This document shows, one piece after another, positions 8,553 through 56,026 of a DNA stretch of 64,000 nucleotides. Both the position numbers and the translations under genes were made by a program. The notes under the pieces were generated by a model that was not told the origin of the DNA, ran no database searches, and was given only the letters and a program-made list of their open reading frames with translations. The stretch's first letter is position 1; every line of letters begins with the position of its first letter. Source of the stretch: Oceaniferula flava (GTDB lineage Bacteria > Verrucomicrobiota > Verrucomicrobiia > Verrucomicrobiales > Akkermansiaceae); contig NZ_JAFBGL010000001.1 of assembly GCF_016811075.1 (NCBI RefSeq), forward strand, positions 558,001 to 622,000. The letters run 5' to 3'.

Positions 8553-8600
8553 GGTGGTGAAATAGTCGTGTATGGTGGCTGTGCCACACGTGGTGATTGA

Positions 8601-9284: not shown

Positions 9285-9339
9285 TATAAATGAGATTGAA
9301 AGAGATGCAAGGTGGTATTAAGGATGAGGAATTGCGATT

Positions 9340-14772: not shown

Positions 14773-14900
14773 GCCCGGCGATTTGGCATCGTTCGCGGCA
14801 ATCCCACGCTACTCCAGAAAAAATCCCCACTTTGAAAGATTCTTCGCTAGGTGCGGGGCGGTGACTCCGTATGCTTGTGGCACATCTACATTCGATCAAT

Positions 14901-26613: not shown

Positions 26614-26702
26614 TCGGTTCTCCTCCATTTGGAGGGTAGACGCGATGACGCGCTTCGTGAAAGGATCGTCGAGTGGGCAAGGTAGATTGCCTGATAGACA
26701 TC

Positions 26703-29189
26703 ATGATGATCCTCAAAAAAATAAGCTTCACATTGGGCTGCGCTCTGGTGGCGCACTCGCTAGCGCATGCGGACGCGCGTTTTGAGCTGCACTATGACCG
26801 CCCTGCGAACGACGAGGCTCCACCTAATCGGGCCATGGGGAAATCGACTCAGAAATCCGGGTTCATCCAGACGGCGTTGCCCTTGGGGAATGGTCGCTTG
26901 GGCGCGATGTTTTCTGGCGGCATTTCCAAGGAACACTTGATGACTAATGACATCACTTTGTGGATGAATGCCAAGCGCGGCCAAGATGCCGGCGAGCAAT
27001 CATCCTCTCGCAAGGTCACTCCGGAGCAGCTTGATCAGGTGCGTGAGGTTTATCGCAAGGGGAACACAGGCACCGGTCCGGAGAGCATGGAGACGATGTC
27101 GACCAAGTATCTCAGCACCCAAGAAAAGTTAGGAAATTACGCGCCGTTCACCGATGTTTGGATCGATACCGGGCATGATCCCAAGCAGGTGACCGATTAC
27201 CGTCGGGCACTCGATATCCGAAGCGGAGTGGGATTGGTTTCCTACGAGCTCAACGGTGGCCAGTTCACGCGCGAAATTTTCTGCAGCTACCCGCACGATG
27301 TGATGGTCACGCGGCTACGTGCGAAGGAGTCGACCCTGAACCTGACGGTGAGCACAAAAACCAAGCACAAGGGGGCGAAAGTTTCTGCCGAGGGAAATCG
27401 GATCACCTTGCTCGGCGAGGCGGCGATGATTCAAGACAACGTCGAGTTCATGCAACTCATCCACATCGAGGCCGTCGATGGTGAGCTCGCGGCGCAGCCT
27501 GATGGATCGGTCAAGATCAGTGGAGCCACGGATGTGCGAATCTATCTGGCGGGGTATAACGATTACTTGCCGAAGTATCCCAGCTTCAAAGGCAGAGACC
27601 ACCGAGGAGATACGCTCAGCACCCTGAATGCCGCTGTGAAACTCGGCTACGAGGTGCTCAAGGAGGCCCATGTGGCGGATGTCGCCAGCCTGATGGATCG
27701 CTGCCGTTTGGAGCTCGATTTCACAGCGTCCGGAGTCCCCACCAATCAACTGGCCAAGCAGGAGAGCCGGGAGCTGGAGAACCTTTATTTCCATTACTCA
27801 CGCTACCTGCAGATCAGCTGCTCGCGGGGAGCTCCGGTGCCTTCCAACCTGCAAGGACTGTGGAACGATCGGCTGAAGCCGGTTTGGAACTGCGATTACC
27901 ACACCGATATCAACCTCGCGATGAACTACTGGATGGTGGAAACGGCGAACCTGCCAGAATCCTTCAGCCCTTATGTGGAATACATGAAGGTGATCGCCGA
28001 GTCGGGGGCCCACAGCGCCCGCCGGACCTTCAATGTGAACAAGGGCTGGAGCATGGGGCTGAATGGCAACGTCTTTGGATTCACGGCCCAGAATGAACAC
28101 GGACGCCGCACCCAGCAGGCGGGACACTGGCTGTCACAGCATCTTTTTGAACACTACGCATTCGGTCGCGACCCGCAATACCTCGAGCAGGTGTATCCCA
28201 TCATGAAAGGCGCGGCGGAGTTCTTTGTGGAGCACCTCGCGCCATGGAAGGATGGCAGCTTGGTGGTGTATCCGACTTGGTCGCCAGAAAATAACTACCA
28301 CCGACAGAAACTCAACAAGCAGGCATACGGCGCGTCATGGGATCAGCAATTGGTGCTCAATCTGTTCACCGACTGCATTGAGGCGTCCTACATTCTCGAG
28401 CGCGATACTGAGTTCCGCCAGACTTTGCAAAAGATGATCCCACGACTCTGTCCGCAGAAAATTGGCAAACACGGCCAGCTGCAAGAGTGGCCCGAGGATT
28501 GGGATGACCCCAAGAATACCCACCGTCATATTTCGCACCTCATCGCCCTGCACCCGGGTCGAGATATCTCACCCTTGACCACTCCTGAACTCTATCAGGC
28601 GGCGCTGGTCACGATGAAACATCGCGGGGATCAATCGACGGGATGGAGCACCGGCTGGAAGACCAACTTCTGGGCTCGACTGCACAATGGCGACCGGGCG
28701 CATAAGATTTACAAGTTTCTAACGTCCAAGAGATCTTATCCCAACCTTTTCGATTTCCACCCGCCGTTCCAGATCGATGGCAACTTCGGCGGTGGTGCCG
28801 GCGTCTGCGAAATGCTACTGCAAAGTCACCTGCGCAGTGTGAATGATGAGGCCACAAGCATCGAAGAAGCTGCCTTTGTCGCTTACCAGCCGGATGCCAA
28901 TCATCCGCAGCACTTTGTCCCCGTCGTGCCGGATGACAAGCTGGTCGAGGCTCCCTACATCCTGCACCTGCTACCGGCCTTGCCCACCGCGTGGTCGAAA
29001 GGAAACGTCCGAGGCCTCCGCGCTCGCGGCGGTCTGGAAGTGGATATCGATTGGGCCGAGAACCGCCTGCAAAAAGCCACCATCCGCGCCACCTGCGACA
29101 CCCGCTTCCGTCTCTATCACGATGGATCATTCAGCGAGGTGATGACCTTGAAAAAAGGGGAGTCGACCCGGTGGCCAGCCAAAGACTAA
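26703..29189 (+). CDS. GH95 alpha-L-fucosidase
   Basis: The start at 26703 gives MMILKKISFTLGCALVAHS, a signal peptide; the frame is open further upstream to 26673. The 828-residue protein has the N-terminal beta domain block A-L-P-L-G-N-G-R-L-G-A-M. The (alpha/alpha)6 barrel carries N-L-Q-G-L-W-N, D-I-N-L-A-M-N-Y-W with Asp402 and Asn404, S-P-E-N with Glu529, and I-D-G-N-F-G-G with Asp692. These map to the catalytic set Asn, Asn, Glu, Asp of GH95 (1,2-alpha-L-fucosidases), except that the first Asn is Asp here. It would release terminal fucose (or galactose-configured) residues by inversion. It lies between unknown genes and two sulfatases. Confidence 0.9.
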   Translation: MMILKKISFTLGCALVAHSLAHADARFELHYDRPANDEAPPNRAMGKSTQKSGFIQTALPLGNGRLGAMFSGGISKEHLMTNDITLWMNAKRGQDAGEQSSSRKVTPEQLDQVREVYRKGNTGTGPESMETMSTKYLSTQEKLGNYAPFTDVWIDTGHDPKQVTDYRRALDIRSGVGLVSYELNGGQFTREIFCSYPHDVMVTRLRAKESTLNLTVSTKTKHKGAKVSAEGNRITLLGEAAMIQDNVEFMQLIHIEAVDGELAAQPDGSVKISGATDVRIYLAGYNDYLPKYPSFKGRDHRGDTLSTLNAAVKLGYEVLKEAHVADVASLMDRCRLELDFTASGVPTNQLAKQESRELENLYFHYSRYLQISCSRGAPVPSNLQGLWNDRLKPVWNCDYHTDINLAMNYWMVETANLPESFSPYVEYMKVIAESGAHSARRTFNVNKGWSMGLNGNVFGFTAQNEHGRRTQQAGHWLSQHLFEHYAFGRDPQYLEQVYPIMKGAAEFFVEHLAPWKDGSLVVYPTWSPENNYHRQKLNKQAYGASWDQQLVLNLFTDCIEASYILERDTEFRQTLQKMIPRLCPQKIGKHGQLQEWPEDWDDPKNTHRHISHLIALHPGRDISPLTTPELYQAALVTMKHRGDQSTGWSTGWKTNFWARLHNGDRAHKIYKFLTSKRSYPNLFDFHPPFQIDGNFGGGAGVCEMLLQSHLRSVNDEATSIEEAAFVAYQPDANHPQHFVPVVPDDKLVEAPYILHLLPALPTAWSKGNVRGLRARGGLEVDIDWAENRLQKATIRATCDTRFRLYHDGSFSEVMTLKKGESTRWPAKD

Positions 29190-29201
29190 ACTGATATCCT
29201 C

Positions 29202-30710
29202 ATGATTCATTCCATTCGCTCACGCCTGAATACCTGCCTGTTTGCTCTGCTGGGCTTGACTGCAGTCGCCAGTGCCAAGCCGCCTAACATCGTGTTCATC
29301 CTTGCCGATGACCTCGGCTGGCAGGATGTGGGATTCATGGGCAGTGAGTATTTCGAAACCCCGACCTTGGATGCGCTGGCGAAAGAGAGTGTGGTTTTTG
29401 AAAATGCCTTCATGTATCCCACCTGTTCGCCGTCACGTGCGGCGATTCTGACCGGTCAGCAGTCGTTCCGCACCGGCTGCTACACGGTGCCTGTGTTAGA
29501 GCGGGGCAAGGCGAAGGATAATATCTTTTCCAAGTGGACGGTCGGCACCGATCACCCGGTCTACGCCGAGCCGTTGAACCGGGCGGGGTATCAATTGATC
29601 CACTTGGGCAAGTGGCACATCGTCGGCCCACACCCGGACAAGGAGCAAAGTGACCCACTCCCGAAAAAACTTGGCCAACCGAAGAATGGCGACATGAGCT
29701 GGCTGCCGGCGCATCGCTCGCCCGAGCTGCAAAAGTATTACCCCACCGGGCGCGGCTTCCATGAAAACGTCGGCGGCAGCTGGTGGGGCGATCCCTCACG
29801 CGGCTATACGAAAGGTTACAAGGCTCCCGGTGGTGGCTATGTCGCGCCGTTTAAGAACCCGTTTATCGAAGAGAAACCTGACGACCAGTGGCTCACCGAT
29901 CGCCTCACCGATGACGCCATCGATTTCATCAAACGTCACCGGGACGGTCCGTTTTTTGTCAACCTGCACTACTACGCGCCGCACCGGCCGTCAGTTCCTC
30001 GCAGCGAGGAATTACTCGCCCATTTCATGCAGAAGAAAGGCGATCCGAACACCGGCCAGGGGATGGGGCCAGCGAAGAAGAAACAGGAAATCGCCGCCTA
30101 CGCAACGATGGTGAAATCCATCGACGACAATGTGCGTCGCCTCCTCGACTTCCTCGACCGCTCAGGTCTCCGTGAAAACACCGTGGTCGTCTTCACCTCC
30201 GACAACGGCTTCAATGGCTTGCAAAGCGCCAGCAAGAACCTCCGGGGAGCCAAGGGCAATGTCTACGATGGTGGCCTGCGTGTCCCGGCTCTGATTCACT
30301 GGCCCAAGGTGGTCACTCCCGGCCGCAAGCAGACACCGGTTCATGGGCTCGACCTCTTTCCCACCTTCCTCGAACTCGCGGGCGTCGACGACTACACGGG
30401 CACCCTCGACGGAGAGAGTTTGTTACCGATCGCCAAAGGCGGAACTCTCGAAGAACGCCCGCTTTTCTGGCACATCGCCAGCGCCTACAAGGACCCGCCG
30501 TGCTCGATCATCCGCAAAGGAAAGTGGAAGCTCATCCAGTTTCTGAAAGATGGTAAAACCGAGCTCTACAACACGGAGAAAGACCTGAAGGAAAGTCGGA
30601 ATCTACTCCAAAGTCACCCGGAAGTTGCCCAGCGTCTGAAGGCTGAACTCATCGCCTGGAGGAAGCAACACGACGTTCCTCTGCCACCTAGTTCGACGCT
30701 TAAAAATTAA
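29202..30710 (+). CDS. Secreted sulfatase (type I)
   Basis: The 502-residue protein has a signal peptide ending near A-V-A-S-A. It shows N-I-V-F-I-L-A-D-D-L-G-W-Q-D (Asp36/37), the formylglycine motif C-S-P-S-R at Cys75, L-G-K-W-H-I near 145, and F-T-S-D-N-G-F. The start is 12 nt after the fucosidase stop, so translation is coupled or the genes are co-transcribed. This sulfatase probably acts on the same fucosylated polymer. A Gly/Pro-rich loop near 185-215 is longer than in its neighbours. Confidence 0.94.
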   Translation: MIHSIRSRLNTCLFALLGLTAVASAKPPNIVFILADDLGWQDVGFMGSEYFETPTLDALAKESVVFENAFMYPTCSPSRAAILTGQQSFRTGCYTVPVLERGKAKDNIFSKWTVGTDHPVYAEPLNRAGYQLIHLGKWHIVGPHPDKEQSDPLPKKLGQPKNGDMSWLPAHRSPELQKYYPTGRGFHENVGGSWWGDPSRGYTKGYKAPGGGYVAPFKNPFIEEKPDDQWLTDRLTDDAIDFIKRHRDGPFFVNLHYYAPHRPSVPRSEELLAHFMQKKGDPNTGQGMGPAKKKQEIAAYATMVKSIDDNVRRLLDFLDRSGLRENTVVVFTSDNGFNGLQSASKNLRGAKGNVYDGGLRVPALIHWPKVVTPGRKQTPVHGLDLFPTFLELAGVDDYTGTLDGESLLPIAKGGTLEERPLFWHIASAYKDPPCSIIRKGKWKLIQFLKDGKTELYNTEKDLKESRNLLQSHPEVAQRLKAELIAWRKQHDVPLPPSSTLKN

Positions 30711-30731: not shown

Positions 30732-32126
30732 ATGAAGTTCGTTCTCCCTCGTCCTGCCATTTTCTTCCTCGCCCTCATCTCGATATCGACTCCCTTCACA
30801 CTGGCCGAGACGGCGAAACCTAACATCGTTTTCATCATGGCGGATGACTTGGGTCCCGGCTGGGTGGATTTCGATGGTAGTGATCCAAAAATCAACACGC
30901 CGAACCTACAACGCTTAGCCAAGACGGGGGTGGTTTTCACTCGGGCTTATGCTGCCGCGACCGTTTGCTCACCCACACGTGCGGCCTGCATCACAGGCAT
31001 GTCACCCGCGCAGATTGGGTTGACGACGCATATCCCGGGAAAAGCTGGAAATGAACGACGTGCTCCGAAAGGTGGCCCGCGCGATGCAGATTCTCTCAAG
31101 CACCTGCCGCTCGATCTCCCCAGCTATGCCCGCGAGCTGAAAAAGTTACATTATGTGACGGGTTTCATTGGCAAGTGGCACCTGGCAGGCGAGGGATCAA
31201 TCGCCACCAAGGACGGAGTGGTGAACAGCGACTGGCACCCGGAACACTATGGCTTTGAAAGCAATATCGGAGGCTGTGCCTACGGACAACCAAAGTCCTG
31301 GTTCTCTCCATTCAAGAATGCCACGATCGAAAATGGAGCAAAAGGGGAGTATCTTACCAATCACCTGGGCGATGCCGCAGCCTCGTTCATTCAGGCAAAC
31401 CACGAACAACCATTCCATCTCACACTCTGGCCCTATTCGGTGCACACGCCCATCAAGGGCCCTAAAGATCTGGTGAAAAAAAATGGCGGGAATAATTACC
31501 TGGCCATGCTCGAGAGCCTCGACAATGCCGTGGGCAAGGTGATCGCGGCTCTGGAGAAAACGAACACACTGGAGAATACGATGATCGTTTTTTACTCCGA
31601 CAACGGCGGCCACAAACCCACCCAGTGGCTCGCTGATAAAAAAGGATCATTGTTAGAAGGTGGTGTGCGAGTTCCCATGGTGGTCAGCTGGCCGGGTGTC
31701 ACCAAGGGAGGAACGACCTGTGACGTGCCTGTGACGAGCATGGACTTCTTTCCGACCTTTGTGCATGCAGCCGGCGGCTCGACCACTGAGATCACACAGC
31801 TGGAGGGCCTGGACCTGAAGCCTCTGTTGCAAGGTGCGGAGAAATTGGACCGGGACGCTTTGTTCTGGCATTATCCTCACAACCGCCCGGACGTGAAATA
31901 TTACATGGGTAGCACGATTCTTCAGGGCGATTGGAAATTGTATGTCGGTCACGGAGTGAAAGCGGACGCTTTGTTCAATCTCAAAGACGATCCGATGGAG
32001 AAAAACAATCTGCTGAAAAAGCATCCCGAGCTAGCTGGTCAGCTGCGCGGCAAGCTCAATGGATGGCTGACAAAGGTGTCGGCCAAGATGCCGAAACCTG
32101 CGCAGGCTCAACCGCGTAAGAAGTAA
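30732..32126 (+). CDS. Secreted sulfatase (type I)
   Basis: The 464-residue protein has a signal peptide (MKFVLPRPAIFFLALISIST) and P-N-I-V-F-I-M-A-D-D-L-G-P. The formylglycine motif is C-S-P-T-R at Cys79 (Thr instead of Ser at the fourth position is allowed), then G-K-W-H-L and Y-S-D-N-G-G-H. It follows the previous sulfatase by 21 nt and closes the plus-strand glycan transcript. A short palindrome lies after it, between it and the convergent amidase gene. Confidence 0.94.
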   Translation: MKFVLPRPAIFFLALISISTPFTLAETAKPNIVFIMADDLGPGWVDFDGSDPKINTPNLQRLAKTGVVFTRAYAAATVCSPTRAACITGMSPAQIGLTTHIPGKAGNERRAPKGGPRDADSLKHLPLDLPSYARELKKLHYVTGFIGKWHLAGEGSIATKDGVVNSDWHPEHYGFESNIGGCAYGQPKSWFSPFKNATIENGAKGEYLTNHLGDAAASFIQANHEQPFHLTLWPYSVHTPIKGPKDLVKKNGGNNYLAMLESLDNAVGKVIAALEKTNTLENTMIVFYSDNGGHKPTQWLADKKGSLLEGGVRVPMVVSWPGVTKGGTTCDVPVTSMDFFPTFVHAAGGSTTEITQLEGLDLKPLLQGAEKLDRDALFWHYPHNRPDVKYYMGSTILQGDWKLYVGHGVKADALFNLKDDPMEKNNLLKKHPELAGQLRGKLNGWLTKVSAKMPKPAQAQPRKK

Positions 32127-44582: not shown

Positions 44583-44894
44583 ATGAGTGAGCAAAACCTA
44601 GACATTACCGTTTATCTGAAAACTTTCTGCGGCTGGAGCGAGGGCGTGCGTGCCATCATGCGCAAGTATGACCTCGAATACACTGAGAAGGACATCATCA
44701 AGAACCCGGCCTTCCGCTGGGAGATGGAGCAGAAAAGCGGCCAGCCGCTGAGCCCCTGCGTGCTGGTCAATGGCACCATGCTTGCCGACGTTTCCGGTGA
44801 TGAAGTCGAGCAGTATCTTGTGGAGCAGAACTTGGTTGCCCCCATTGATGCTCCTGCAGATGCGCCCACGGACAGTAGCTGCCCGGGCCATTAA
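44583..44894 (+). CDS. Glutaredoxin-fold protein with monothiol C-G-W-S active site
   Basis: The 103-residue protein has a thioredoxin fold: V-Y-L-K-T-F-C-G-W-S near 10-19, an acidic helix and beta strand, and Q-P-L-S-P-C-V-L-V-N-G with the cis-proline of the family near 60. Cys16 is kept but the second active-site Cys is Ser19, so it is monothiol. A second cysteine directly follows the cis-Pro. It may reduce glutathione mixed disulfides or handle Fe-S clusters. Length is normal for a single-domain glutaredoxin. Neighbours give no functional hint. Confidence 0.8.
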   Translation: MSEQNLDITVYLKTFCGWSEGVRAIMRKYDLEYTEKDIIKNPAFRWEMEQKSGQPLSPCVLVNGTMLADVSGDEVEQYLVEQNLVAPIDAPADAPTDSSCPGH

Positions 44895-45007: not shown

Positions 45008-45958
45008 ATGGCAACGCATTATCACGATAAAACGCAGCATAGTTCCCGGCGCAGGTTTCTCAAACAGGCCACCGTCGGAGGGCTCGCTCTTTCTTCCTTG
45101 GGGTCCCAATTGCTGGGGGCAGCCCCTAAGACGAGCGCAAACGTTGTCGCCAGTCTGGACGGTCGCTTGTTCAAGACACTCAAGTTTGGCATGATCAAGG
45201 GAGGCTCCGTGTTGGAGCGCTTCCAGATGGCAAAAGAGGCTGGCTTTTCCGGCGTCGAATTGGATGTGCCCGGTCTGCCGATCGAGGAAGCGAATGCCGC
45301 GAGTGCTGCCACCGGCATCACCGTAGACGGCGCCGTGGGTAGCTCACACTGGGCCATACGGCACAGTGATCCAGATCCTGCTGTCCGCGCCAAGGCCTTG
45401 GAGAAGTTAATCAAGGGCATTGAGGAAACACGGGCAGTTGGAGGTAGCACCATCCTGTTAGTTGTCGGTCATGGCAAAGACGGGAGCCATGAAGAAGTTT
45501 GGGAGCGCTCGATCGCGAATATCAAACTGGCCTTACCTCATGCGGCAAAACATGGCGTGACCATCGTGATTGAAAACGTCTGGAACCATTTTTGCTACGA
45601 TCATCAAGGCGACTCTAACCAGACTGCTGAATTGTTGGCCAAATACGTCGATGCTTTCCAATCGCCCTTCGTGGGACTCCAGTTCGACATTGGGAATCAT
45701 TGGAAATACGGCAGCATGGGCGATTGGATAAGGTTGTTAGGAAAACGCATCGTGAAGCTCGATGTGAAAGGGTTCTCACGGCAGAAGAACAAATTCAGCA
45801 AGATCGGCGAAGGGGACATTGATTTTGCCGACGTCCGCAAGGCTCTTGTGGAGATCAACTACCATGGGTGGTGCGCCGCCGAAGTGGGGGGAGGCGATCT
45901 CACAAGGCTCAAAGAAATCTCGAAGAATATGGACCAAGCTTTCGGTCTAACAAAATAA
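45008..45958 (+). CDS. Exported sugar phosphate isomerase/epimerase-type TIM-barrel protein
   Basis: The start at ATG 45008 (a GTG lies 6 nt upstream) gives MATHYHDKTQHSSRRRFLKQ, a twin-arginine signal. The 316-residue protein is an AP-endonuclease-2-like TIM barrel. Typical motifs are A-G-F-S-G-V-E-L-D-V-P near 83, V-V-G-H-G-K-D-G near 155, I-V-I-E-N-V-W-N near 190, L-Q-F-D-I-G-N-H near 230 and A-A-E-V-G-G-G-D-L near 290. Family members isomerise sugars with metal help. Folded export by Tat suggests periplasmic sugar processing. It starts the run with Gfo/Idh, SUMF1 and ApbE genes. Confidence 0.85.
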   Translation: MATHYHDKTQHSSRRRFLKQATVGGLALSSLGSQLLGAAPKTSANVVASLDGRLFKTLKFGMIKGGSVLERFQMAKEAGFSGVELDVPGLPIEEANAASAATGITVDGAVGSSHWAIRHSDPDPAVRAKALEKLIKGIEETRAVGGSTILLVVGHGKDGSHEEVWERSIANIKLALPHAAKHGVTIVIENVWNHFCYDHQGDSNQTAELLAKYVDAFQSPFVGLQFDIGNHWKYGSMGDWIRLLGKRIVKLDVKGFSRQKNKFSKIGEGDIDFADVRKALVEINYHGWCAAEVGGGDLTRLKEISKNMDQAFGLTK

Positions 45959-45981
45959 CAACTCAACTATCAATCATTCTC

Positions 45982-47316
45982 ATGTCTGAATCATCATCAA
46001 GCAATCAATCATCGCAGCTGACTCGCCGGCATTTTATCAAAAACACATCCTTGGGGGCCGCCGCATTGGGGCTCTCCCCGGTGGTTTTGCCAAGTGCCCA
46101 CGCGGCGAAGGCGGCAGGAAATAGGAAATTAAAAGTGGGAGTGGTCGGCCTTGGTGGTCGTGGCTCGGGAGCTGTCCGAGATATTTTAACGGCCGACCCG
46201 AACACCATCCTATGGGCTGTCGGTGATATCTTCGAAAAACCCCTGCAAAAAGTCGCCAAGTTCGAGAAGAAATATTCTGGGCGTGTTGATACCGATGGTG
46301 GCAAGCGACATTTCGTTGGCTTTGATGCCTATCAGAAGGTGATCGACAGCGGCGTGGACATAGTGCTCTTGACCAGCACGCCCGCCTTCCGTCCGCTCCA
46401 TTTCGAGGCTTCCGTGGCCGCAGGTAAACATACCTTCCTGGAGAAACCCATCGCTCTGGATATCCCAGGCATGAAGAGTGTGATCGAGAGTGCGAAAAAG
46501 GCGCAGAGTAATGGTCAATCGGTCCTAACAGGCTTGGTCTGGCGATACAGCCCGCACCTGATGGAGATGCACAAGCGCGTGCAAGACGGCGTCATCGGCG
46601 AAGTGCTCACCACGTCGTCGTCCTACTGCGGAGGAGGGCGGCCGAACAAGATGCCCGACATCAAATACAAACCGGCCAAGATGCCCGATATGGAATGGGC
46701 GCAGAGATATTGGCAGAATTACTTGGAGCTGGGTGGTGATGGTGCCCTGGAGTTCATGATCCACGGGATGGATCGCATGTCATGGGCCATGGGGGATGGC
46801 ATGCCTGTGAAGTGTTACGCCAATGGCGCAAACATCCATCCCGTCAAAGGTGCCAACGCTTGGGATAGTTTCAACCTGCGTTATGTCTATGCGGATGGGC
46901 GCACGGCAGACTTCTTTGGTCGACAGATCCCCGGCTCCTACGCACCCAGTGGCGATACGATTGTGGGCACGAAAGGTCAGGCCTTCGTGAGTGGGTCAGC
47001 AGCTTCGATCATCGTGGATGGCAAAACGATCTGGCATAAAAAAGGAGGCTTGGGTTATGTCAACGAACACAGAATTTTCACCGCGCATATCCGCAAAGGT
47101 GAGGTTTACAATGACGTGGTGGACAAACACAAACTGGCCACCAGTCATATCATCGGCATCATGGGGCGGACCGCAGCTTACACCGGCAAGCTGATTACGG
47201 ATCAGCAAATCATGAGCTCGAAGGATGTGCTATTGGCAGACATCAAGAACCTCAACTTCGACACTCCGTTCAAGCCGCGTGAGTCGGCGGTCCCGGGTAA
47301 AACTCCATTTGTCTAA
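45982..47316 (+). CDS. Exported Gfo/Idh/MocA-family oxidoreductase
   Basis: The start at 45982 gives MSESSSSNQSSQLTRRHFIK with a Tat motif (R-R-H-F-I-K); the open frame continues 38 codons upstream without a better start. The 444-residue protein has V-G-V-V-G-L-G-G-R-G-S-G near 53 (nucleotide binding), E-K-P-I-A-L near 156 and a C-terminal domain with G-D-G-A-L-E-F-M-I-H-G-M-D-R. Proteins of this type, exported by Tat in Verrucomicrobiota and Planctomycetota, oxidise sugars or act in glycosidase-like redox. NAD(P) would need to be carried along with the protein. It begins 23 nt after the isomerase stop. Confidence 0.88.
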   Translation: MSESSSSNQSSQLTRRHFIKNTSLGAAALGLSPVVLPSAHAAKAAGNRKLKVGVVGLGGRGSGAVRDILTADPNTILWAVGDIFEKPLQKVAKFEKKYSGRVDTDGGKRHFVGFDAYQKVIDSGVDIVLLTSTPAFRPLHFEASVAAGKHTFLEKPIALDIPGMKSVIESAKKAQSNGQSVLTGLVWRYSPHLMEMHKRVQDGVIGEVLTTSSSYCGGGRPNKMPDIKYKPAKMPDMEWAQRYWQNYLELGGDGALEFMIHGMDRMSWAMGDGMPVKCYANGANIHPVKGANAWDSFNLRYVYADGRTADFFGRQIPGSYAPSGDTIVGTKGQAFVSGSAASIIVDGKTIWHKKGGLGYVNEHRIFTAHIRKGEVYNDVVDKHKLATSHIIGIMGRTAAYTGKLITDQQIMSSKDVLLADIKNLNFDTPFKPRESAVPGKTPFV

Positions 47317-47321
47317 CGAAC

Positions 47322-48455
47322 ATGATCTCTAGCATAAATCCTCACAGGGCGATCTTGGCAATCACCGCACTCACGGCATTCGACCTGTGTGCGGAGGGGC
47401 CGGCGGCGGCAAAGCCAGCAGCAGATGTAAAGCCGGCGATGGCGAAGAATGGATTCGACAAGGAGCAGATGCGCCTGGCGAAGATCATCCACAAGCGGAT
47501 AGTCGATTATAAGCAAATCAAGAACCAGACCAACGGCAACAAGCCTCAGCCATTCGAGAGCTACACGGAAACATTGAAAACGGGTGCGCAGTTCAAGATG
47601 TTGCCGGTTCAAGGCGGTTCGTTCACTTGGCAGGGAAAAGAACTGGGCGACAAACTTGAGGTAACGCTCTCACCATTCTGGATGGGGAAGACAGAGGTGA
47701 CTTGGGAAGAATACGAGCCCTTTATGCTGTCGCAAATCCCACGACAAAAAGACGGCCAGGTGCTGGACTTTATGCGCGAGCAGATTGAAAACGACATCGA
47801 TTTTCTGGCTCGCCCCACGCCACCGTATCACCCGATGACTTACGGGATGAAACGAGACGGTCACCCAGCGATCAGCATGACCCAGCACGCCGCCAACAAA
47901 TACTGCCAGTGGCTGAGTTATCAAACGGGGCACTTTTACCGTCTCCCCACAGAGGCCGAGTGGGAGTATGCCGCCCGTGCAGGCACCAACACCAAATACA
48001 GCTGGGGGGATTCCGAAGCGGATGCCGATCAATATGCCTGGTTCGGTGGTGACAATGCCTCACACTATCAAAAACCTGCTCAGAAAAAACCGAATGCCTG
48101 GGGGTTTTACGATATGCACGGTAATGTGTTAGAATGGACCTTGGATCAATGCGTGCCGAACCGGAAAGAATACTTTGGCAAAGGTCAAGTCCGCAACCCG
48201 TGGATCAAAGCGACCAAGCCGTATCCTCACGTCACCAAGGGTGGTCACTGGAAAATGCCGCTCAAGGAGATAAGTTCTGCCGGCAGAACTCCTTCCGATG
48301 CCAATTGGAAACTCTCTGATCCGCAAGACCCCAAAAGTCTTTGGTATCACACCAATGCGCCGTGGTTAGGTTTCCGTGTGGTCCGCCCGGCCGAGATCCC
48401 CACCGCTGAAGCAATGTATCATTATTGGAATTCCGGTGTGGAGGCCGATGAGTAA
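47322..48455 (+). CDS. Exported SUMF1-fold (formylglycine-generating-like) protein lacking the catalytic cysteines
   Basis: The 377-residue protein has a signal-like N-terminus. Its C-terminal 270 residues form a SUMF1/FGE-type domain, with W-M-G-K-T-E-V-T-W-E-E-Y, Y-R-L-P-T-E-A-E-W-E-Y-A-A-R-A-G and F-Y-D-M-H-G-N-V-L-E-W-T. In formylglycine-generating enzymes the G-G-S-W segment near the C-terminus is followed by the copper-binding cysteines. Here the corresponding G-G-H-W-K-M-P-L-K-E-I-S has none, so maturation of sulfatases by this protein is unlikely. It starts 5 nt after the oxidoreductase stop. Confidence 0.85.
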   Translation: MISSINPHRAILAITALTAFDLCAEGPAAAKPAADVKPAMAKNGFDKEQMRLAKIIHKRIVDYKQIKNQTNGNKPQPFESYTETLKTGAQFKMLPVQGGSFTWQGKELGDKLEVTLSPFWMGKTEVTWEEYEPFMLSQIPRQKDGQVLDFMREQIENDIDFLARPTPPYHPMTYGMKRDGHPAISMTQHAANKYCQWLSYQTGHFYRLPTEAEWEYAARAGTNTKYSWGDSEADADQYAWFGGDNASHYQKPAQKKPNAWGFYDMHGNVLEWTLDQCVPNRKEYFGKGQVRNPWIKATKPYPHVTKGGHWKMPLKEISSAGRTPSDANWKLSDPQDPKSLWYHTNAPWLGFRVVRPAEIPTAEAMYHYWNSGVEADE

Positions 48456-49443
48456 GTGGCTCATTTTCTTGGGGCTGTTCTTCATGCCTCCCGCGATCAG
48501 TGCCGAGTTGGCTGAACTGAAAAAGTATCATTTTTCAGAAGCGCATCTCGGCACCGATGTGCACCTCGTGTTTTATTCTGACAGTCCCGAGCAAGCGGAG
48601 GCCTTGGCGCAGAGGTGTTTTCAGCGGGTGCAAGCGCTCGATGCGGTGCTCTCCGACTACCAGTCTCACAGTGAGCTCAGCCAGCTCTGCCGGAAACCGA
48701 TTGGGAAAGCGCATCCAGTCAGCAAGGACCTCTTTGCCGTGATCGCCCGGGCCCAGCAGATTAGTTGTCTATCACACGGTGCCTTTGATATCACCATGGG
48801 AAAAGCAAGCCACTCCTGGCGTGCCCGGCGTCTCTCGAAACCGGTGCCGAAAGATCACGCTAACCAAGGCTCTGAGATGGTGAGTTTCCGAGATGTCGGT
48901 CTAGTGGCCGAGCAGCGCTTGGTCACCTTGCGCAAGACGATGCGCCTTGACCTTGGTGGAATCGGCAAGGGCTATATCGCGGATCAGGTGATGCTGGTCT
49001 TGAAAAAAGCTGATGTGACGCACGCGGCGGTGATCATCGGGGGGGAGACCTTGTTAGCCGATGCCCCGCCGGGGAAAACAGGCTGGAGAATCGGGATTGA
49101 AAACCCAGAACACCAAATCATCGGCACCCTCGACTTGGCGAACACCGCGGTCTCGACCTCCGGCGATAGCTACCAGTTCTTCGAAGTGGAGGGGGAGCGG
49201 GAATCTCATCTGATTGACCCCGCGACGAGGCGAAGCAAAACAAACCGACTCAACGTCGTCACTATTGCACGATCGTCGATGTTGGCAGACGCCTGGGCCA
49301 CGGCGCTACGGGTCCTACCCACTAGCGAGGCCCGTGATTTGGCCGATCAACAGCCCGGAATCGAAGCTCTGTTCATTCCGTATCGTCAGGCCACGTCAGG
49401 GACGAAGCATTTTCCCAAGCTGGCAGTTCCTGAGAAGAACTGA
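48448..49443 (+). CDS. apbE: FAD:protein FMN transferase (ApbE)
   Basis: The start at 48448 overlaps the previous stop by 8 nt and gives MSKWLIFLGLFFMPPAISAE, a signal peptide. The 331-residue protein has the ApbE pattern: G-A-F-D-I-T-M-G-K near 113, L-D-L-G-G-I-G-K-G-Y near 170, A-V-S-T-S-G-D-S-Y near 233, H-L-I-D-P near 254 and S-M-L-A-D-A-W-A-T-A near 275. ApbE attaches FMN covalently to threonine or serine of extracytoplasmic proteins. The target is not visible in this window. An Mg2+ site fits the conserved Asp/Thr set. Confidence 0.93.
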   Translation: MSKWLIFLGLFFMPPAISAELAELKKYHFSEAHLGTDVHLVFYSDSPEQAEALAQRCFQRVQALDAVLSDYQSHSELSQLCRKPIGKAHPVSKDLFAVIARAQQISCLSHGAFDITMGKASHSWRARRLSKPVPKDHANQGSEMVSFRDVGLVAEQRLVTLRKTMRLDLGGIGKGYIADQVMLVLKKADVTHAAVIIGGETLLADAPPGKTGWRIGIENPEHQIIGTLDLANTAVSTSGDSYQFFEVEGERESHLIDPATRRSKTNRLNVVTIARSSMLADAWATALRVLPTSEARDLADQQPGIEALFIPYRQATSGTKHFPKLAVPEKN

Positions 49444-49447
49444 GTGA

Positions 49448-50554
49448 CTACCCAGCCTTCACCGGTGCGGGGATGATTCCCTCGGCGGTTTCCTTTTTCA
49501 GTCGGAGCTGACCGCAAGCGGCGTTGATATCGTGGCCCTTTTCCAGTCGGAGCGTAGTATTGATTCCGGCGTCGGCGACGATATCGCGGAAGCCATAACA
49601 CACCTCCTCGGACGGACGCACCCAGTCGAGCCCTTCCACCGTATTGTAAGGGATCAGGTTCACCTTGGCGTTGATGCCTTTGGCGCGTTTGGCCAGGATG
49701 GTGGCCTGCTCTTTGGAGTCGTTGACTCCTTTGATGAGAATATATTCCAGCGAGATTTTCTGTTTCTTGAACGTGCGCCAGTAGTGCAGGGAGTCGAACA
49801 GCTCCTTGATCTGCCATTTTTTGTTCACGGGCATGATGAGGTCGCGCACGTCGTCGGTGGCACCGTGCAGCGAGATCGCCAGACGGATCGGGACGGGGAA
49901 CTCGGCGAGCTTTTTAATCATTGGTGCCAGTCCGGAGGTCGAGACCGTGATGTGACGAGCTCCAATGTTCAGCCCCCAGTGGCCGGTGATGATTTCCAGC
50001 GCCTTGATCAGATTCTTGATGTTTGCCAGGGGCTCACCCATGCCCATGAAGACGATGTTATTGATCGATTCCCCAGTCAGCTTTTCCACCATCATCATCT
50101 GCCCGATGATCTCATCCGCGGTCAGGTTGCGGGTGAATCCGGCCAAACCTGAAGCGCAGAATTTGCAGCCGTAGGCGCAGCCGACCTGAGAGGAAACACA
50201 GATCGTTTTCCGATCGGACTGTTTTCCCTTCAGTCCTTTGGAGGCGGGAATGAAGACGGTTTCGACATAGCGGCCGTCCTGCAGGCGGAAAAGAAACTTG
50301 CGTGTGGTGTCCTCCGAGCCGCTGGTTTCCACATGGCTCATGCTGTTGATGTGAAACTCACTGGCCAGCTTGTCACGCATCGGCGCTGGCAGATTGCTCA
50401 TCTCCTCGATGTCTTCTACCCGTTGTTGGTAGAGCCATTCCAGGATTTGTTTGGCGCGATAGGGTTTTTGACCTGCGCTGACAACATAAGCCTCAAGGTC
50501 TTCTTTGCTGAGGCCTCGGAGTGATTGGGTAGCTGGTTTTTCGGTGGCTGACAC
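49448..50554 (-). CDS. rlmN: 23S rRNA (adenine-2503-C2)-methyltransferase RlmN
   Basis: The chosen start is GTG at 50554, giving VSATEKPATQSLRGLSKE; a 54-codon N-terminal extension to 50716 would overlap cysK and has an atypical composition. The 368-residue protein has the radical SAM motif G-C-A-Y-G-C-K-F-C (C-x3-C-x2-C) near 120, G-M-G-E-P-L-A-N near 172 and a catalytic Cys near the C-terminus. It methylates 23S rRNA A2503 and some tRNAs. Its stop lies only 4 nt from the convergent apbE stop. Confidence 0.93.
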   Translation of the reverse strand: MSATEKPATQSLRGLSKEDLEAYVVSAGQKPYRAKQILEWLYQQRVEDIEEMSNLPAPMRDKLASEFHINSMSHVETSGSEDTTRKFLFRLQDGRYVETVFIPASKGLKGKQSDRKTICVSSQVGCAYGCKFCASGLAGFTRNLTADEIIGQMMMVEKLTGESINNIVFMGMGEPLANIKNLIKALEIITGHWGLNIGARHITVSTSGLAPMIKKLAEFPVPIRLAISLHGATDDVRDLIMPVNKKWQIKELFDSLHYWRTFKKQKISLEYILIKGVNDSKEQATILAKRAKGINAKVNLIPYNTVEGLDWVRPSEEVCYGFRDIVADAGINTTLRLEKGHDINAACGQLRLKKETAEGIIPAPVKAG

Positions 50555-50714
50555 GGCGTGCTTGTAGCATGAATTGTGGAAAAGGCACGGATTTTTACTA
50601 ATCTCGGACAGATGACGAGAACTGGCGCGGATCTTGCTTGAAAGAGGCAGGGAATAGGAGAGAGTTGGGCGAAAGCAATCATTGCTCAATAATCGATTCA
50701 AACATTCCAATATC

Positions 50715-51680
50715 ATGACTCAAATTGCCAACAATCTCGTCGAGACCGTGGGGAACACTCCACTGGTCAAACTCAACCACGTTACTCAGGGCTTAGACGC
50801 TGAGATTCTCGTGAAGTGTGAGTTTTTCAACCCTCTGTTCAGCGTCAAGGACCGGATTGGGCGCTCGATGGTGGAGACGGCGGAAAAAGATGGTAGCCTC
50901 AAACCCGGCGGCACCATTGTGGAGCCCACTTCAGGAAACACTGGGATCGCACTCGCTTTTGTAGCTCGCTCCAAGGGCTACCGCTGTATTCTGACGATGC
51001 CGGAAACCATGTCGATGGAACGCCGCATGCTGCTGCGTATGCTCGGTGCGGAAATCGTGCTCACCCCAGGGCCTAAGGGCATGAACGGCGCCATTGTCAA
51101 AGCCAAGCAGCTCTGCGAAGAGCTCGGCGAAATGGCTTTCAACCCAAGCCAATTTGATAACCCGGCAAACCCCGAAGCTCACCGCTTGACCACCGCGGAG
51201 GAAATCTGGGAAGCCACCGGCGGAAACATCGATGCCTTCGTGGCTGGTGTGGGCACCGGCGGCACATTGACTGGAGTCAGTGAGGTGCTGAAAGACCGCT
51301 GTGATATGAAAGCTTTCGCCGTTGAGCCGACCGATAGTCCGGTCATCTCAGGCGGCAAACCTGGGCCACACAAGATCCAAGGGATCGGTGCTGGCTTTAT
51401 CCCTGGCAACCTCAATGTCGATATCATCGATGAGGTGATCCAGGTCAGTAACGAAGACGCCTTTGCCACGGCCCAAGATGTGGCGCAGAACGAAGGTCTG
51501 CCAGTGGGGATTTCCAGTGGTGGCAATATCTGGTCGGCTATTCAGCTGGCCAAGCGCCCTGAGTTCGCCGGCAAACGCATCGTCACCGTGGCCTGCAGCT
51601 CCACCGAGCGCTACCTCAGCACTCCACTCGCCGAGAAGGTGAAGGAGGAGGTCAGCAACTTAGCTGTCCAAGACGTGTAA
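50715..51680 (+). CDS. cysK: Cysteine synthase A
   Basis: The start at ATG 50715 gives MTQIANNLVETVGNTPLVKL, the canonical N-terminus; an earlier start (50682) adds 11 unlike residues. The 321-residue protein contains N-P-L-F-S-V-K-D-R-I-G with PLP Lys45, T-S-G-N-T-G-I-A-L near 75 and G-T-G-G-T-L-T-G near 180. It condenses O-acetylserine with sulfide in the cytosol. It is divergent from rlmN with 160 nt between and likely co-transcribed with the 72-residue gene downstream. Confidence 0.95.
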   Translation: MTQIANNLVETVGNTPLVKLNHVTQGLDAEILVKCEFFNPLFSVKDRIGRSMVETAEKDGSLKPGGTIVEPTSGNTGIALAFVARSKGYRCILTMPETMSMERRMLLRMLGAEIVLTPGPKGMNGAIVKAKQLCEELGEMAFNPSQFDNPANPEAHRLTTAEEIWEATGGNIDAFVAGVGTGGTLTGVSEVLKDRCDMKAFAVEPTDSPVISGGKPGPHKIQGIGAGFIPGNLNVDIIDEVIQVSNEDAFATAQDVAQNEGLPVGISSGGNIWSAIQLAKRPEFAGKRIVTVACSSTERYLSTPLAEKVKEEVSNLAVQDV

Positions 51681-52788: not shown

Positions 52789-52979
52789 GACGGTGATCAT
52801 GCATAGTTAGAGAGCTTTGGCTACTGCTGTCTGTGATCATGACTCGATCGATTCATGGCTTTATTCCACGGCATACAGTCACGCAAGACTTAGATGATCA
52901 TTGACGTGCCATCACACACTCTGCTGGAATTCATCAACATGAGGTGAGCTCCCGTGCTCGACACCACCTCTCAAATAAT

Positions 52980-55076
52980 ATGATGATACGAATCGGTTTT
53001 TTAATCACCGCCCTGCTATGTGCATGGATTCAGGCAGAGGATCAATACGGCACATATGAGCTGGGTGAGGGCAACGAAATTGTCGTCACCGATGGCGTGA
53101 TCATCAGGGAGGTTCCCGTTGGAAAAGGCAAACGGCCGATGATCGCAGTGGGCACGAAGGCTGGTTATAACTACATGTATGATCCGAACGATCGGTCGAT
53201 GGAGGGGATTTGGACAGGGCACTTTGGTCGCCAAGATCCCGCTGGCCAGTTCGAGCCGATGAACCAGAAAATGAAGTCGTTTCACCTCAAACGACTGCCG
53301 TGGATCTTCTCCGAGCCACTGCGCTTGAAGATGAAGCTCAAGCAGGACCACAAGTGGGTCGGGGTGGAAGTGGTCGATGGCAAGGTGTATTTCAAAACCA
53401 TCCTCACCGAGGCGATCACCGGCATGCGCTGGGAAATTAAAGAGCACCTCGAATACATCTCGGAACTCGAGCAAAATATTCACTTCGACATCAAGGCGAA
53501 TAAGAAGACCAAGGAGAACCTGAACTACAAACTGACTCAGGTGCCATTCCGCCGACTATCCACCAATGGGAAGCAGAACCAGCGCAACGGACTGAAAAAC
53601 CTCTTTCCCAACCAGGAGAAGTTCACCATTTCCTTCCTGCGCCGGGGAGAGAAGGTGACCATCCCCAATGGTTACACGGTGGAAAAAGTCGACCTCCCCA
53701 AGGTGCGCCGACCGTTCTTGTTTGAGCCGACTGATATTGCCTTTGCCGACGATGGTTCCGCGTATATCTCAACACGCACCGGAGCCGTTTGGAAAAATAA
53801 GGATGGTAAATGGATCCTCTTCGCCGATGGCCTTCAGGAGGTCAATGGCGTGCTCATCGCTCCCGATGGCAAGGGCGTCTACGTGATGCAGAAGCCGGAA
53901 CTCACCCTGCTCAAGGACACGGATGGGGACGACATCGCGGACGTGTATGTATCAGTGGAAGATCGCTACCGCTACACAGGGAACTACCACGAATTCGTCT
54001 ACGGCCCGCGCATGGATTCCGAGGGGAATCTGTATTTCTCCACCGGCCTCGCCGCCCGTGGCTACCACCAGGTGAAAGGCGATTTTAAAAAGCCAATGTC
54101 CACTTCGCTCGGCTACCGCGGCTGGGTCATGAAGGTCGATAAGGATGGCAATATCACTCCTTACGCCTCCGGATTACGGTCGCCCGCCGGCATTGGCATG
54201 AACGATCAGGACGAGCTTTTTGTCACCGATAACCAAGGCGACTGGGTGGCCTCATCTTATCTGGGTCACGTGGAGAAGGACGATTTCCTCGGTCACCCGG
54301 CTGCACTCTGGGATCTGCCGGAATACGGTCTTACACCGAGTGTGTTAGATTACAAAACCAGTCCGCAAACGGTGCCATCCGTGCCTGAACTCGATCAGGA
54401 AAAGTTCGCCAAAGCCAGAAAGCACCCCGCCGTGTGGCTGTCCCACGGTGATCTCACTAACTCCCCTGGTCATCCGGCCTTTGCACCAGCAGAAGGTTTT
54501 GGCCCTTTTGGCGGGCAGGCCTTTATTGCGGACATTGCCCAACGTAATGTGGTGCGTGTGTCCTTGGAAAAAGTAGGTGGAGCCTATCAAGGTGCGGTCT
54601 ACCCATTTATTCGCCCGCTCAGCAGCGCAGCCTACTCGGCAGGCTTTGATAAGAAGGGAAACCTATGGATTGGTTCCGTCGGTCGCGGTTGGGTTGCCGG
54701 TGAGTCTGAGCTTGAGGTGATTCGCTACAAGGAAGGCGAATCGCCCTTCGAGATTCATCATTTTGCGCTCACAAAGGATGGTTTCGATATCGTGCTGACC
54801 CAGCCTATGGCTGAGAAGTCACTGGTTGCAGACGCGATCAAGGTCCGCGAATATGATTACAAATATTGGGATGGCTACGGTTCCGAGCCCATGCATGAGG
54901 CCCCGGTGCCGGTAAAAAAGGTCAGCGTCTCCGACGATGGTCTTACAGTTTCTATCGAGCTCGATCGCAAAGAGCACTTCATCTATCAGATCGAGCTTCC
55001 CAAGCTCAAATCCAAGTCCGGCCTCGTGCTTGAGAACAACTACGGTGTCTACACCCTGAACAAACTCCTTCCATGA
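52980..55076 (+). CDS. Secreted beta-propeller dehydrogenase-like protein with PVC-specific N-terminal module (DUF6797-like)
   Basis: The start at 52980 gives MMIRIGFLITALLCAWIQAE, a signal peptide; earlier in-frame GTG 52944 is disfavoured. The 698-residue protein has an N-terminal module (about 25-115) with G-V-I-I-R-E-V-P, M-I-A-V-G-T-K-A-G-Y-N-Y and D-R-S-M-E-G-I-W. A mixed region follows, then a beta-propeller (about 230-620) with F-E-P-T-D-I-A-F-A-D-D-G-S, D-T-D-G-D-D-I-A-D and G-L-R-S-P-A-G-I-G. Propellers of this type resemble PQQ-dependent sugar dehydrogenases. It overlaps the cytochrome gene by 4 nt (ATGA), so the two are coupled. No heme motif is present in it. Confidence 0.8.
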   Translation: MMIRIGFLITALLCAWIQAEDQYGTYELGEGNEIVVTDGVIIREVPVGKGKRPMIAVGTKAGYNYMYDPNDRSMEGIWTGHFGRQDPAGQFEPMNQKMKSFHLKRLPWIFSEPLRLKMKLKQDHKWVGVEVVDGKVYFKTILTEAITGMRWEIKEHLEYISELEQNIHFDIKANKKTKENLNYKLTQVPFRRLSTNGKQNQRNGLKNLFPNQEKFTISFLRRGEKVTIPNGYTVEKVDLPKVRRPFLFEPTDIAFADDGSAYISTRTGAVWKNKDGKWILFADGLQEVNGVLIAPDGKGVYVMQKPELTLLKDTDGDDIADVYVSVEDRYRYTGNYHEFVYGPRMDSEGNLYFSTGLAARGYHQVKGDFKKPMSTSLGYRGWVMKVDKDGNITPYASGLRSPAGIGMNDQDELFVTDNQGDWVASSYLGHVEKDDFLGHPAALWDLPEYGLTPSVLDYKTSPQTVPSVPELDQEKFAKARKHPAVWLSHGDLTNSPGHPAFAPAEGFGPFGGQAFIADIAQRNVVRVSLEKVGGAYQGAVYPFIRPLSSAAYSAGFDKKGNLWIGSVGRGWVAGESELEVIRYKEGESPFEIHHFALTKDGFDIVLTQPMAEKSLVADAIKVREYDYKYWDGYGSEPMHEAPVPVKKVSVSDDGLTVSIELDRKEHFIYQIELPKLKSKSGLVLENNYGVYTLNKLLP

Positions 55077-56026
55077 TTCATCTGCTTACCAACCTGACCC
55101 TTATTTCCTCCTGCGTGTCCCTGGCCTATGCCCAGGCCACTGATATCACCGTGCAGGATAAAACGCTGATCCAGCGCTGCCTCATCGATGACGCTCCTTC
55201 CACTCGTATGATCGCGGTGGGAAATCCCGGCGGTTTTAACTATGCCTTTGATGCACTGCATTGCGCTCCCGTCTTTGCTTGGAGTGGCGGTTTTTTGGAT
55301 TTTAAGGGCGAAGTCAATGGTCGTGGTGGTAACCCCAGCAAGGTGCTCGGGGTGAGACAGAGCCTTGGCACGGATACGATTCCATTTCGCGTCAAAAAAT
55401 CCGACGTCGCTCCGGAGGCGATTAAGTTCCATGGCTACCGTCGCGATGCAGAAACCGGCGAGCCGACATTTACCTACGCGATCGATGGGTTTCCTGTTGA
55501 GCAGAAGGTCGATTTCACCACGGCGAACGTGGTCACTCTGAACTTCACCTTTCCCAAACCGAGCGAGAGCAAGAACTACTACCGCGTTGATGTCGCCCAG
55601 GTCGACAAGGTGGAGCTGAGCGAAGGGCTTACACTCAGTGGCAAGCAGGTGATCGAATTTCCCGCCGGCGCCACCACTGCGAAGATCACCCTGCACCTCA
55701 AACCTGCCAACAAGAAGTTTGTCCGCAAGATCGTCAAACTTTCCGGCGAGCAAATTTACAAGATGCACTGCAACGCCTGCCACTCGCTCGACGGCAGCAA
55801 GTTGATCGGCCCCAGTTTCAAGGGCTTCTTCGGCAAGAAACACAACGTTGTGAGAAATGGTCAGGAGCAGCAAGTGCTCGTGGATGCTGCCTACCTGAAG
55901 GAATCGATCACCGATCCACAGGCCGCGATTGTCAAAGGTTACGAAGCGGTGCCCATGCCAAGTTTCTCCAAGGTGCTGAGTAAAAGGGAAATTGAGACCT
56001 TGGTGAAATACCTCTCGAAGCTCTAA
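55073..56026 (+). CDS. Secreted cytochrome c with a PVC-specific N-terminal module
   Basis: The 317-residue protein has a signal peptide ending near A-Y-A-Q-A. Residues about 22-90 repeat the module of the preceding protein: L-I-Q-R-C-L-I-D-D, M-I-A-V-G-N-P-G-G-F-N-Y and F-D-A-L-H-C-A-P-V-F-A-W. The C-terminal 95 residues are a class I cytochrome c with heme site C-N-A-C-H near 234, G-P-S-F-K-G and ligand-type M-P-S-F-S-K. It should take electrons from the propeller protein encoded upstream. Coupling through an ATGA overlap supports a joint complex. Confidence 0.85.
   Translation: MIHLLTNLTLISSCVSLAYAQATDITVQDKTLIQRCLIDDAPSTRMIAVGNPGGFNYAFDALHCAPVFAWSGGFLDFKGEVNGRGGNPSKVLGVRQSLGTDTIPFRVKKSDVAPEAIKFHGYRRDAETGEPTFTYAIDGFPVEQKVDFTTANVVTLNFTFPKPSESKNYYRVDVAQVDKVELSEGLTLSGKQVIEFPAGATTAKITLHLKPANKKFVRKIVKLSGEQIYKMHCNACHSLDGSKLIGPSFKGFFGKKHNVVRNGQEQQVLVDAAYLKESITDPQAAIVKGYEAVPMPSFSKVLSKREIETLVKYLSKL

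Follow-up and report, generated by a model that had tools for sequence, protein, structure and literature searches.

We analysed a run of four plus-strand genes in a 64,000-nucleotide stretch of the Oceaniferula flava genome (the window), which encodes a predicted sugar isomerase, a Gfo/Idh/MocA oxidoreductase (Gfo/Idh), a SUMF1-fold protein and an ApbE flavin transferase. We think it likely that the run specifies a sugar dehydrogenase that is exported and a partner of SUMF1 fold to which ApbE attaches flavin mononucleotide (FMN), linking extracytoplasmic sugar oxidation to respiration. A sequence-only reading of this DNA had proposed that ApbE may install covalent FMN on a protein of the run, and the sequence evidence assembled below supports this. 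The same reading had directed the search for the target to the isomerase and the oxidoreductase; the SUMF1-fold protein encoded by the third gene is most likely the target instead.

The four-gene run

The first gene (45008–45958) encodes a 316 amino acid sugar isomerase/epimerase of the AP_endonuc_2 family (xylose-isomerase-like TIM barrel; PF01261, E = 1.6e-39), predicted to be exported and with a twin-arginine translocation (Tat) motif, S-R-R-R-F-L-K, read by eye. The second (45982–47316) encodes a 444 amino acid Gfo/Idh with a Rossmann domain binding nicotinamide adenine dinucleotide (NAD) and a C-terminal domain (PF01408, GFO_IDH_MocA, E = 7.7e-10; PF22725, GFO_IDH_MocA_C3, E = 6.3e-8), and its match to the NCBIfam Tat signal model TIGR01409 (TAT_signal_seq) predicts Tat export. 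The SUMF1-fold (FGE-sulfatase) protein (47322–48455, 377 amino acids; PF03781, E = 9.5e-36) and ApbE (48448–49443, 331 amino acids; PF02424, E = 4.5e-69) have hydrophobic N-termini, read by eye, and are also predicted to be exported. Successive genes are spaced 23, 5 and −8 nucleotides apart, and the Pfam families of all four proteins exceeded their cut-offs. The membership and spacing of the run given by the sequence-only reading were thus borne out by the open reading frames (ORFs) and Pfam. A glutaredoxin gene (44583–44894) flanks the run on the isomerase side, and a convergent gene read as rlmN (49448–50716) follows ApbE.

The run ApbE scored 233.4 bits against a PF02424 cut-off of 25.6 and had 13 relatives in the PDB, most of them named FAD:protein FMN transferase (FAD, flavin adenine dinucleotide). 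Its H254 was kept in 44/44 ApbEs from modules of this kind and its D281 in 43/44, the remaining row being a gap. From the surrounding motifs these residues are the probable counterparts of His257 and Asp285 named in the Vibrio cholerae enzyme (PMC12052999). An AlphaFold model of the SUMF1 protein (pLDDT, the predicted local distance difference test, 79.9) matched structures of TvpA, PvdO and formylglycine-generating enzyme (FGE).

Conserved linkage of SUMF1, ApbE and Gfo/Idh

A search of 145 genomes of Akkermansiaceae, the window's family, listed 132 SUMF1 matches at E ≤ 1e-30, which we paired, on the same strand only, with 150 listed ApbE places. Among the matches listed, a same-strand ApbE lay within 400 nucleotides of SUMF1 in 41 cases, within 3 kb in 22 more and farther away in two, and for 67/132 the 150 listed ApbEs included none on the same contig and strand. 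ApbE was downstream of SUMF1 in 62/63 linked cases. The picture from 20 close ApbE orthologues (44–68% identity) was the same, with SUMF1 upstream in 19 and the twentieth beginning at a contig end. We also fetched 65 own-family loci through an ApbE or SUMF1 match, which biases their neighbour counts towards the module; within 5 kb of SUMF1, ApbE was present in 45/65 and Gfo/Idh in 52/65. Gfo/Idh adjoined SUMF1 also where ApbE was absent, for example in the pairs L148, L152 and L155.

A GTDB-wide scan with SUMF1 alignment A2 extended the comparison to the best 80 of 565 relatives, which do not amount to a census. We called 61 of these loci motif-bearing, as they matched the regular expression DP[QN].P[KRQ]S near the C-terminus, and the remaining 19 generic. 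Neighbours within 5 kb were counted by BLAST to a few reference proteins, accepting any Gfo/Idh subfamily, and short contigs make the counts lower bounds. Gfo/Idh neighboured SUMF1 in 51/61 motif-bearing loci vs 0/19 generic loci (Fisher p = 1.7e-11), and ApbE in 19/61 vs 0/19 (Fisher p = 0.004), with the identity of ApbE confirmed by Pfam in 13 of the 19. ApbE-linked motif-bearing loci came from four phyla: Planctomycetota, Bacteroidota, Acidobacteria and Verrucomicrobiota. The recurrence of Gfo/Idh and ApbE beside SUMF1 in the window's own family and in other phyla indicates that the genes cluster above chance.

The isomerase appears to be an optional fourth member of the module: a homologue neighboured SUMF1, at up to 5 kb, in 7/65 own-family loci (the biased set) and 1/61 GTDB-wide loci. 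All four families occurred together in L227 and L228, from two congeneric genomes of another class, in the order Gfo/Idh-isomerase-X-ApbE-SUMF1, where X was typed in L227 only, as Exo_endo_phos. Beyond the window's class there were four SUMF1 genomes, all with a neighbouring ApbE, upstream in three and divergent in one; besides L227/L228, the orders were ApbE-SUMF1 in one genome and a divergent pair in another, compared with ApbE downstream in the window. No ApbE was found in the stretches examined from four SUMF1 genomes in another family of the window's order.

A maximum-likelihood tree of 75 ApbEs did not separate linked from unlinked sequences, and most unlinked own-family ApbEs fell among module ApbEs. 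A DUF2271-linked ApbE (see below) sat on a very long branch of unsure placement with two unlinked ApbEs, the second copy of L048 and that of L194, both from SUMF1-bearing genomes. Small genes 5' of unlinked ApbEs were considered as hidden partners and rejected, as by sequence reading they were uracil phosphoribosyltransferase-like, HAD-phosphatase-like and other unrelated proteins. Weak DUF2271-like matches (E ~5e-5 to 1e-4, below cut-off) lay ~2 kb from the unlinked ApbEs of L058, L063, L198 and L199 and are possibly another substrate group. Genes also occurred between SUMF1 and ApbE: a by-eye translation reading of L143, L144 and L147 found a peroxiredoxin-like frame on the opposite strand, seemingly between the two, and L266 and L278 (Maribacter) had a 181–186 amino acid YceI-like protein ('VDGTSTLHDW') there.

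Co-occurrence across genomes

Among the matches listed, 102 of the 145 own-family genomes contained SUMF1 and 127 contained ApbE: 100 had both, two SUMF1 alone, 27 ApbE alone and 16 neither. The two SUMF1-alone genomes were 72% and 61% complete. ApbE was therefore found in 100/102 genomes with SUMF1 vs 27/43 without it (Fisher p = 3.4e-8, ignoring ancestry). The sequence-only reading had counted homologues lacking ApbE as a point against flavinylation within the run; such homologues, with no ApbE linked to them, were indeed seen (for example L148, L152 and L155), but nearly every SUMF1 genome has an ApbE somewhere. Of the 145 genomes, 63 had FMN_bind and 14 had a DUF2271 match that exceeded the cut-off, and 38 genomes with both SUMF1 and ApbE had neither of these substrate domains. 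Three genomes with a single ApbE (G061, G082 and G130) contained the module and had no FMN_bind or DUF2271 match. Within one genus of 19 genomes (g3), SUMF1, ApbE and Gfo/Idh were all present in 12 and all absent in seven, at loci apart from each other. At the phylum level, SUMF1 (E ≤ 1e-60 to alignment A1) occurred in 21/213 genomes, 13 of them from the window's family, and all 21 had ApbE, as did at least 139 of the 192 genomes without SUMF1.

The O. flava genome itself has three ApbE genes, in the window and on contigs C4 and C7, and no FMN_bind match at E ≤ 0.001. Contig C7 carries a second module, Gfo/Idh-SUMF1-ApbE, with ApbE last as in the window. On contig C4 (L034:4438-15669), genes for DUF2271, two DUF4198, ferritin-like and TonB receptor proteins surround a very divergent ApbE. 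The DUF2271 protein has the motif D-G-V-S-G-P-T, and its gene is separated from ApbE by the two DUF4198 genes; as regards DUF2271, the locus resembles a known kind of ApbE neighbourhood. A clear ApbE target elsewhere in the genome, which the sequence-only reading had named as contrary evidence, is present in this DUF2271 protein, but with another, very divergent ApbE nearby. The DNA pattern for D-x-x-[ST]-G-A-[ST] was not enriched in the genome (71 matches vs 82 in a reversed control). We retrieved 30 of the 71 matches as loci and examined 17 of the other 41, chosen by codons, and none of the nine motif-bearing ORFs in the loci examined was a plausible exported redox protein. One of the nine was an exported sulfatase-like protein in which the motif match overlaps the active-site region.

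The candidate flavinylation site

The published ApbE motif is D-x-x-[ST]-G-A-[ST], in which G-to-A and A-to-V changes approximately halve flavinylation (PMC12052999). The sequence-only reading had found no such motif in the first three proteins of the run. This is literally true, but the SUMF1 protein has a degenerate form, D160-F-L-A-R-P-T166 (47799–47819, plus strand), in which T166 is the proposed FMN acceptor. The canonical motif was present in 6/155 SUMF1 rows, 0/138 Gfo/Idh rows (including paralogous subfamilies) and 0/10 isomerase rows. Gfo/Idh was rejected as the flavin target on this count and because 20/20 module members had no [ST]G[AG][ST], and the isomerase was rejected on the same count and because its gene is missing near most SUMF1 genes. 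The six exact-motif SUMF1 proteins read D-[AG]-[VI]-S-G-A-T, and all six motifs fell on the T166 column of a 162-row alignment.

Long rows were trimmed before alignment to the last 460 residues for the 162-row alignment and the last 400 for a comparison of linked and unlinked proteins. Site statistics refer to a family of 141 rows outside the 19 generic loci, 138 of which are ungapped at the T166 column. At this column every one of the 138 rows had T or S, always preceded by A or P; position −6 was D in 119 rows and position −3 was S or T in 102. The pattern D..[ST]G[AP][ST] occurred 15 times in the 141 family rows, every time at the T166 column, vs a mean of 0.58 and a maximum of four in 200 shuffles. 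One of the 15, L281 (D-G-V-T-G-P-T), has ApbE 2 nucleotides downstream. Generic SUMF1 rows had the pattern in 0/21, of which 14 are gapped there and only seven test the motif. Seven S/T columns were at least 90% conserved in the family, and only T166 paired D at −6 with S/T at −3 in most rows. No S/T column separated ApbE-linked (50 rows) from unlinked (22 rows) SUMF1 proteins, which had the same conserved columns. In the AlphaFold model of the window protein, T166 is predicted to lie in a loop after helix 158–161 (block pLDDT 78), and in that of L246, which has the exact motif D-A-V-S-G-A-T, the site is in a low-confidence loop (pLDDT <50).

A second conserved segment, D333-P-Q-D-P-K-S339-L-W-Y-H-T344 (48318–48353, plus strand), is a signature of the family. 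D333, P334, Q335, P337 and S339 were invariant in alignment A1 (22 rows), as were the matching residues in A2 (12 rows), and the DPQxPKS signature was absent from the C-terminal tails of the 19 generic loci. Since the regular expression itself defined the motif-bearing GTDB-wide loci, we took the conservation of S339 from A1, A2 and the 162-row alignment. S339 was the first acceptor candidate and was dropped after the 162-row alignment placed the canonical motifs at T166. As a guess, the loop is perhaps part of a flavin pocket.

Haem fusions and sugar context

Five Verrucomicrobiota loci (L227, L232, L128, L065 and L237) encode SUMF1 fusions with one or two PSCyt1 haem domains over cut-off, and a further PSCyt1 fusion (L230) was just under cut-off. 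In Bacteroidota, SUMF1 was fused to a NapC/NirT domain, confirmed by Pfam in both loci tested (L279 and L290). Among the best 80 of 565 relatives, CxxCH occurred within the SUMF1 ORF in 15/61 motif-bearing vs 0/19 generic loci (Fisher p = 0.016), with four CxxCH per ORF (tetrahaem) in ten Bacteroidota loci. Because of these cytochrome fusions and the dehydrogenase and flavin-transferase partners, the SUMF1 protein is best read as an electron carrier. In the window, a DUF7133 protein gene and then a c-type cytochrome gene (55073–56026) occupy 52944–56026, the cytochrome gene starting ~5.6 kb past the run.

A 3-keto-disaccharide hydrolase (DUF1080) was fused to SUMF1 in L051, adjoined the module in L036 and L053, and lay ~5.6 kb downstream of SUMF1 in the second O. 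flava module (L035). None of the four genes of the window run encodes DUF1080. The isomerase and these DUF1080 links suggest 3-keto glycosides as the sugars concerned.

Proposed mechanism and its alternatives

The attachment of FMN to T166, the direction and partners of electron flow and the sugar substrate are steps that we infer. ApbE would transfer FMN from FAD to T166 of the SUMF1 protein after export, at the degenerate motif. The substrate of the exported Gfo/Idh would be a glycoside or sugar, with a 3-keto sugar as the probable product; the enzyme's nicotinamide, kept bound outside the cytoplasm, would be re-oxidised by the SUMF1 FMN. In many relatives SUMF1 would then hand electrons to its fused c-type haem domains, from which a cytochrome or the quinone pool would receive them; O. 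flava would use a separate carrier instead, conceivably the c-type cytochrome encoded at 55073–56026. The isomerase would process the oxidation product. There is no soluble NAD pool outside the cytoplasm for exported NAD(P)-dependent Gfo/Idh enzymes, and the SUMF1 FMN would offer them an electron exit.

More broadly, and with only a slight leaning in its favour, we propose that SUMF1-fold covalent flavoproteins spanning several phyla, often flavo-haem proteins, re-oxidise exported Gfo/Idh enzymes, and that ApbE reads a relaxed motif, D-x-[VIL]-[ST/A]-[RQG]-[PA]-[TS]. If this is true, extracytoplasmic sugar oxidation would be coupled directly to respiration via SUMF1 flavoproteins. ApbE genomes lacking a known substrate, 4% of a 2021 eLife set (PMC8238504), would gain a specific, widespread substrate candidate with a predicted acceptor residue.

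Several observations weigh against this interpretation. By the published motif the window site is weak, with A at −3, R at −2 and P at −1; the exact motif occurred in 6/138 rows and in none from the window's family, and no ApbE lay within 5 kb in any of the six exact-motif loci. Nor are the 15 G[AP] motifs independent, because they comprise three flavobacterial loci, the ten tetrahaem Bacteroidota loci, L281 and L282, and the ten loci with four CxxCH also had no ApbE within 5 kb. The co-occurrence statistics ignore ancestry, and the presence/absence split in g3 may be a single gain or loss. There are the 27 ApbE genomes without SUMF1, 17 of which also had no FMN_bind or DUF2271 over cut-off; in one of the 17 (G062) the end of a contig carries part of a SUMF1 gene. 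The ApbEs of G025, G081, G104 and G101 group with module ApbEs, and these four genomes lack this SUMF1. For the sugar, DUF1080 lay within 5 kb in only 5/65 own-family loci (one also a fusion) and 2/61 GTDB-wide loci.

We weighed four other explanations. ApbE could serve another, unlinked protein, with the SUMF1-Gfo/Idh pair a mere genomic companion, as the D-G-V-S-G-P-T of the O. flava DUF2271 protein and the module-like ApbEs of genomes without SUMF1 might suggest. We consider this unlikely: the DUF2271 protein is encoded near a separate ApbE that sits on a very long branch, the nine own-genome ORFs with D..[ST]GA[ST] gave no plausible exported redox protein, G061, G082 and G130 pair a single ApbE and the module with no FMN_bind or DUF2271 match, and other phyla show the linkage again with the genes arranged differently. 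Flavinylation of the SUMF1 protein at S339 of the DPQxPKS loop is less probable again. S339 with D at −6 is conserved in 141/141 aligned family rows, in addition to its invariance in A1 and A2, but S/T at −3 occurs in 6% of rows and G at −2 and A/P at −1 in none, and no member has a canonical motif there, the six canonical motifs all being on T166.

It is improbable to a similar or slightly greater degree that ApbE acts mainly as a periplasmic FAD pyrophosphatase, like Ftp, releasing free FMN for non-covalent binding by a flavoprotein such as SUMF1. Ftp enzymes with this activity exist, but both Ftp classes retain transferase activity (PMC4767422). Such a role would leave unexplained both the T/S conservation at the T166 column and the exact flavinylation motifs seen in relatives. 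Very improbable, finally, is that the SUMF1 protein is an FGE for the genome's sulfatases, unrelated to ApbE. The fold and Pfam family fit, and translation reading finds sulfatase-like genes elsewhere in the window. FGE has a C-terminal catalytic Cys pair, and this pair is missing from the window protein because no Cys follows the GG at residues 307–308 in its translation or in alignment A2. The family is also linked to Gfo/Idh, ApbE and haem, which speaks against an FGE as well.

Other features of the window

Four sulfatase-like genes were found by translation reading (14871–16451, 20587–21993, 29202–30710 and 30732–32126), and a GH95-type glycoside hydrolase (26673–29189) lies among several sulfatase-like genes. 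A 1320 amino acid protein (16590–20552) combines GDSL lipase, DUF7133 and plastocyanin-type copper domains. A Type I restriction-modification locus occupies 5184–11820 on the minus strand, with HsdR identified by Pfam and HsdS and HsdM by translation reading.

Comparison with known systems

PvdO (dihydropyoverdine dehydrogenase in NCBIfam) and FGE have the SUMF1 fold in common with the window protein. The T166 segment and the DPQxPKS loop both fall outside the region aligned with PvdO, and FGE differs in using cysteines and copper. We know of no flavin in SUMF1-fold proteins, and of no ApbE or haem partner for PvdO or FGE. A search of open-licence literature, by titles and the starts of abstracts, turned up no paper describing an ApbE substrate with this fold, though this does not prove its absence from print. 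In the main text of PMC8238504, PMC11334425 and PMC12052999 the word 'sulfatase' was absent, as was 'Verrucomicrob' from the two where it was sought.

Known ApbE substrates include FMN_bind, NqrB/RnfD, DUF2271, DUF3570, Flavodoxin_4 and FMN_red, and some orphan ApbE genomes remain besides (PMC8238504, PMC11334425, PMC12052999). The DUF2271 and DUF3570 substrates of orphan-apbE genomes (PMC8238504) are comparable in genome context: they share export, a gene beside apbE, an [S/T]GA[S/T]-like site and the absence of FMN_bind from the genome. Here, unlike in those families, there is a SUMF1 fold, a mostly degenerate motif, a Gfo/Idh partner and, in part of the family, haem fusions. The Flavodoxin_4 and FMN_red substrates (PMC11334425) are similar in that a non-FMN_bind domain is flavinylated at an inserted or C-terminal segment, and differ in being kin to known non-covalent flavoproteins.

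On the sugar side, the proposed module would share with the LacABC and BT2157/BT2158 3-ketoglycoside pathways (PMC9007349, PMC11300592) periplasmic 3-keto oxidation, epimerase-type partners and, at a few loci, DUF1080 hydrolases. LacABC differs in its distinct membrane-bound dehydrogenase, and the portions of these papers available mention no SUMF1 protein or ApbE for either pathway. ApbE-based extracytoplasmic electron transfer is a known type of system. Its new elements here, within the reach of our search, are the SUMF1 fold of the proposed substrate, the pairing with a sugar dehydrogenase and the fusion to haem domains.

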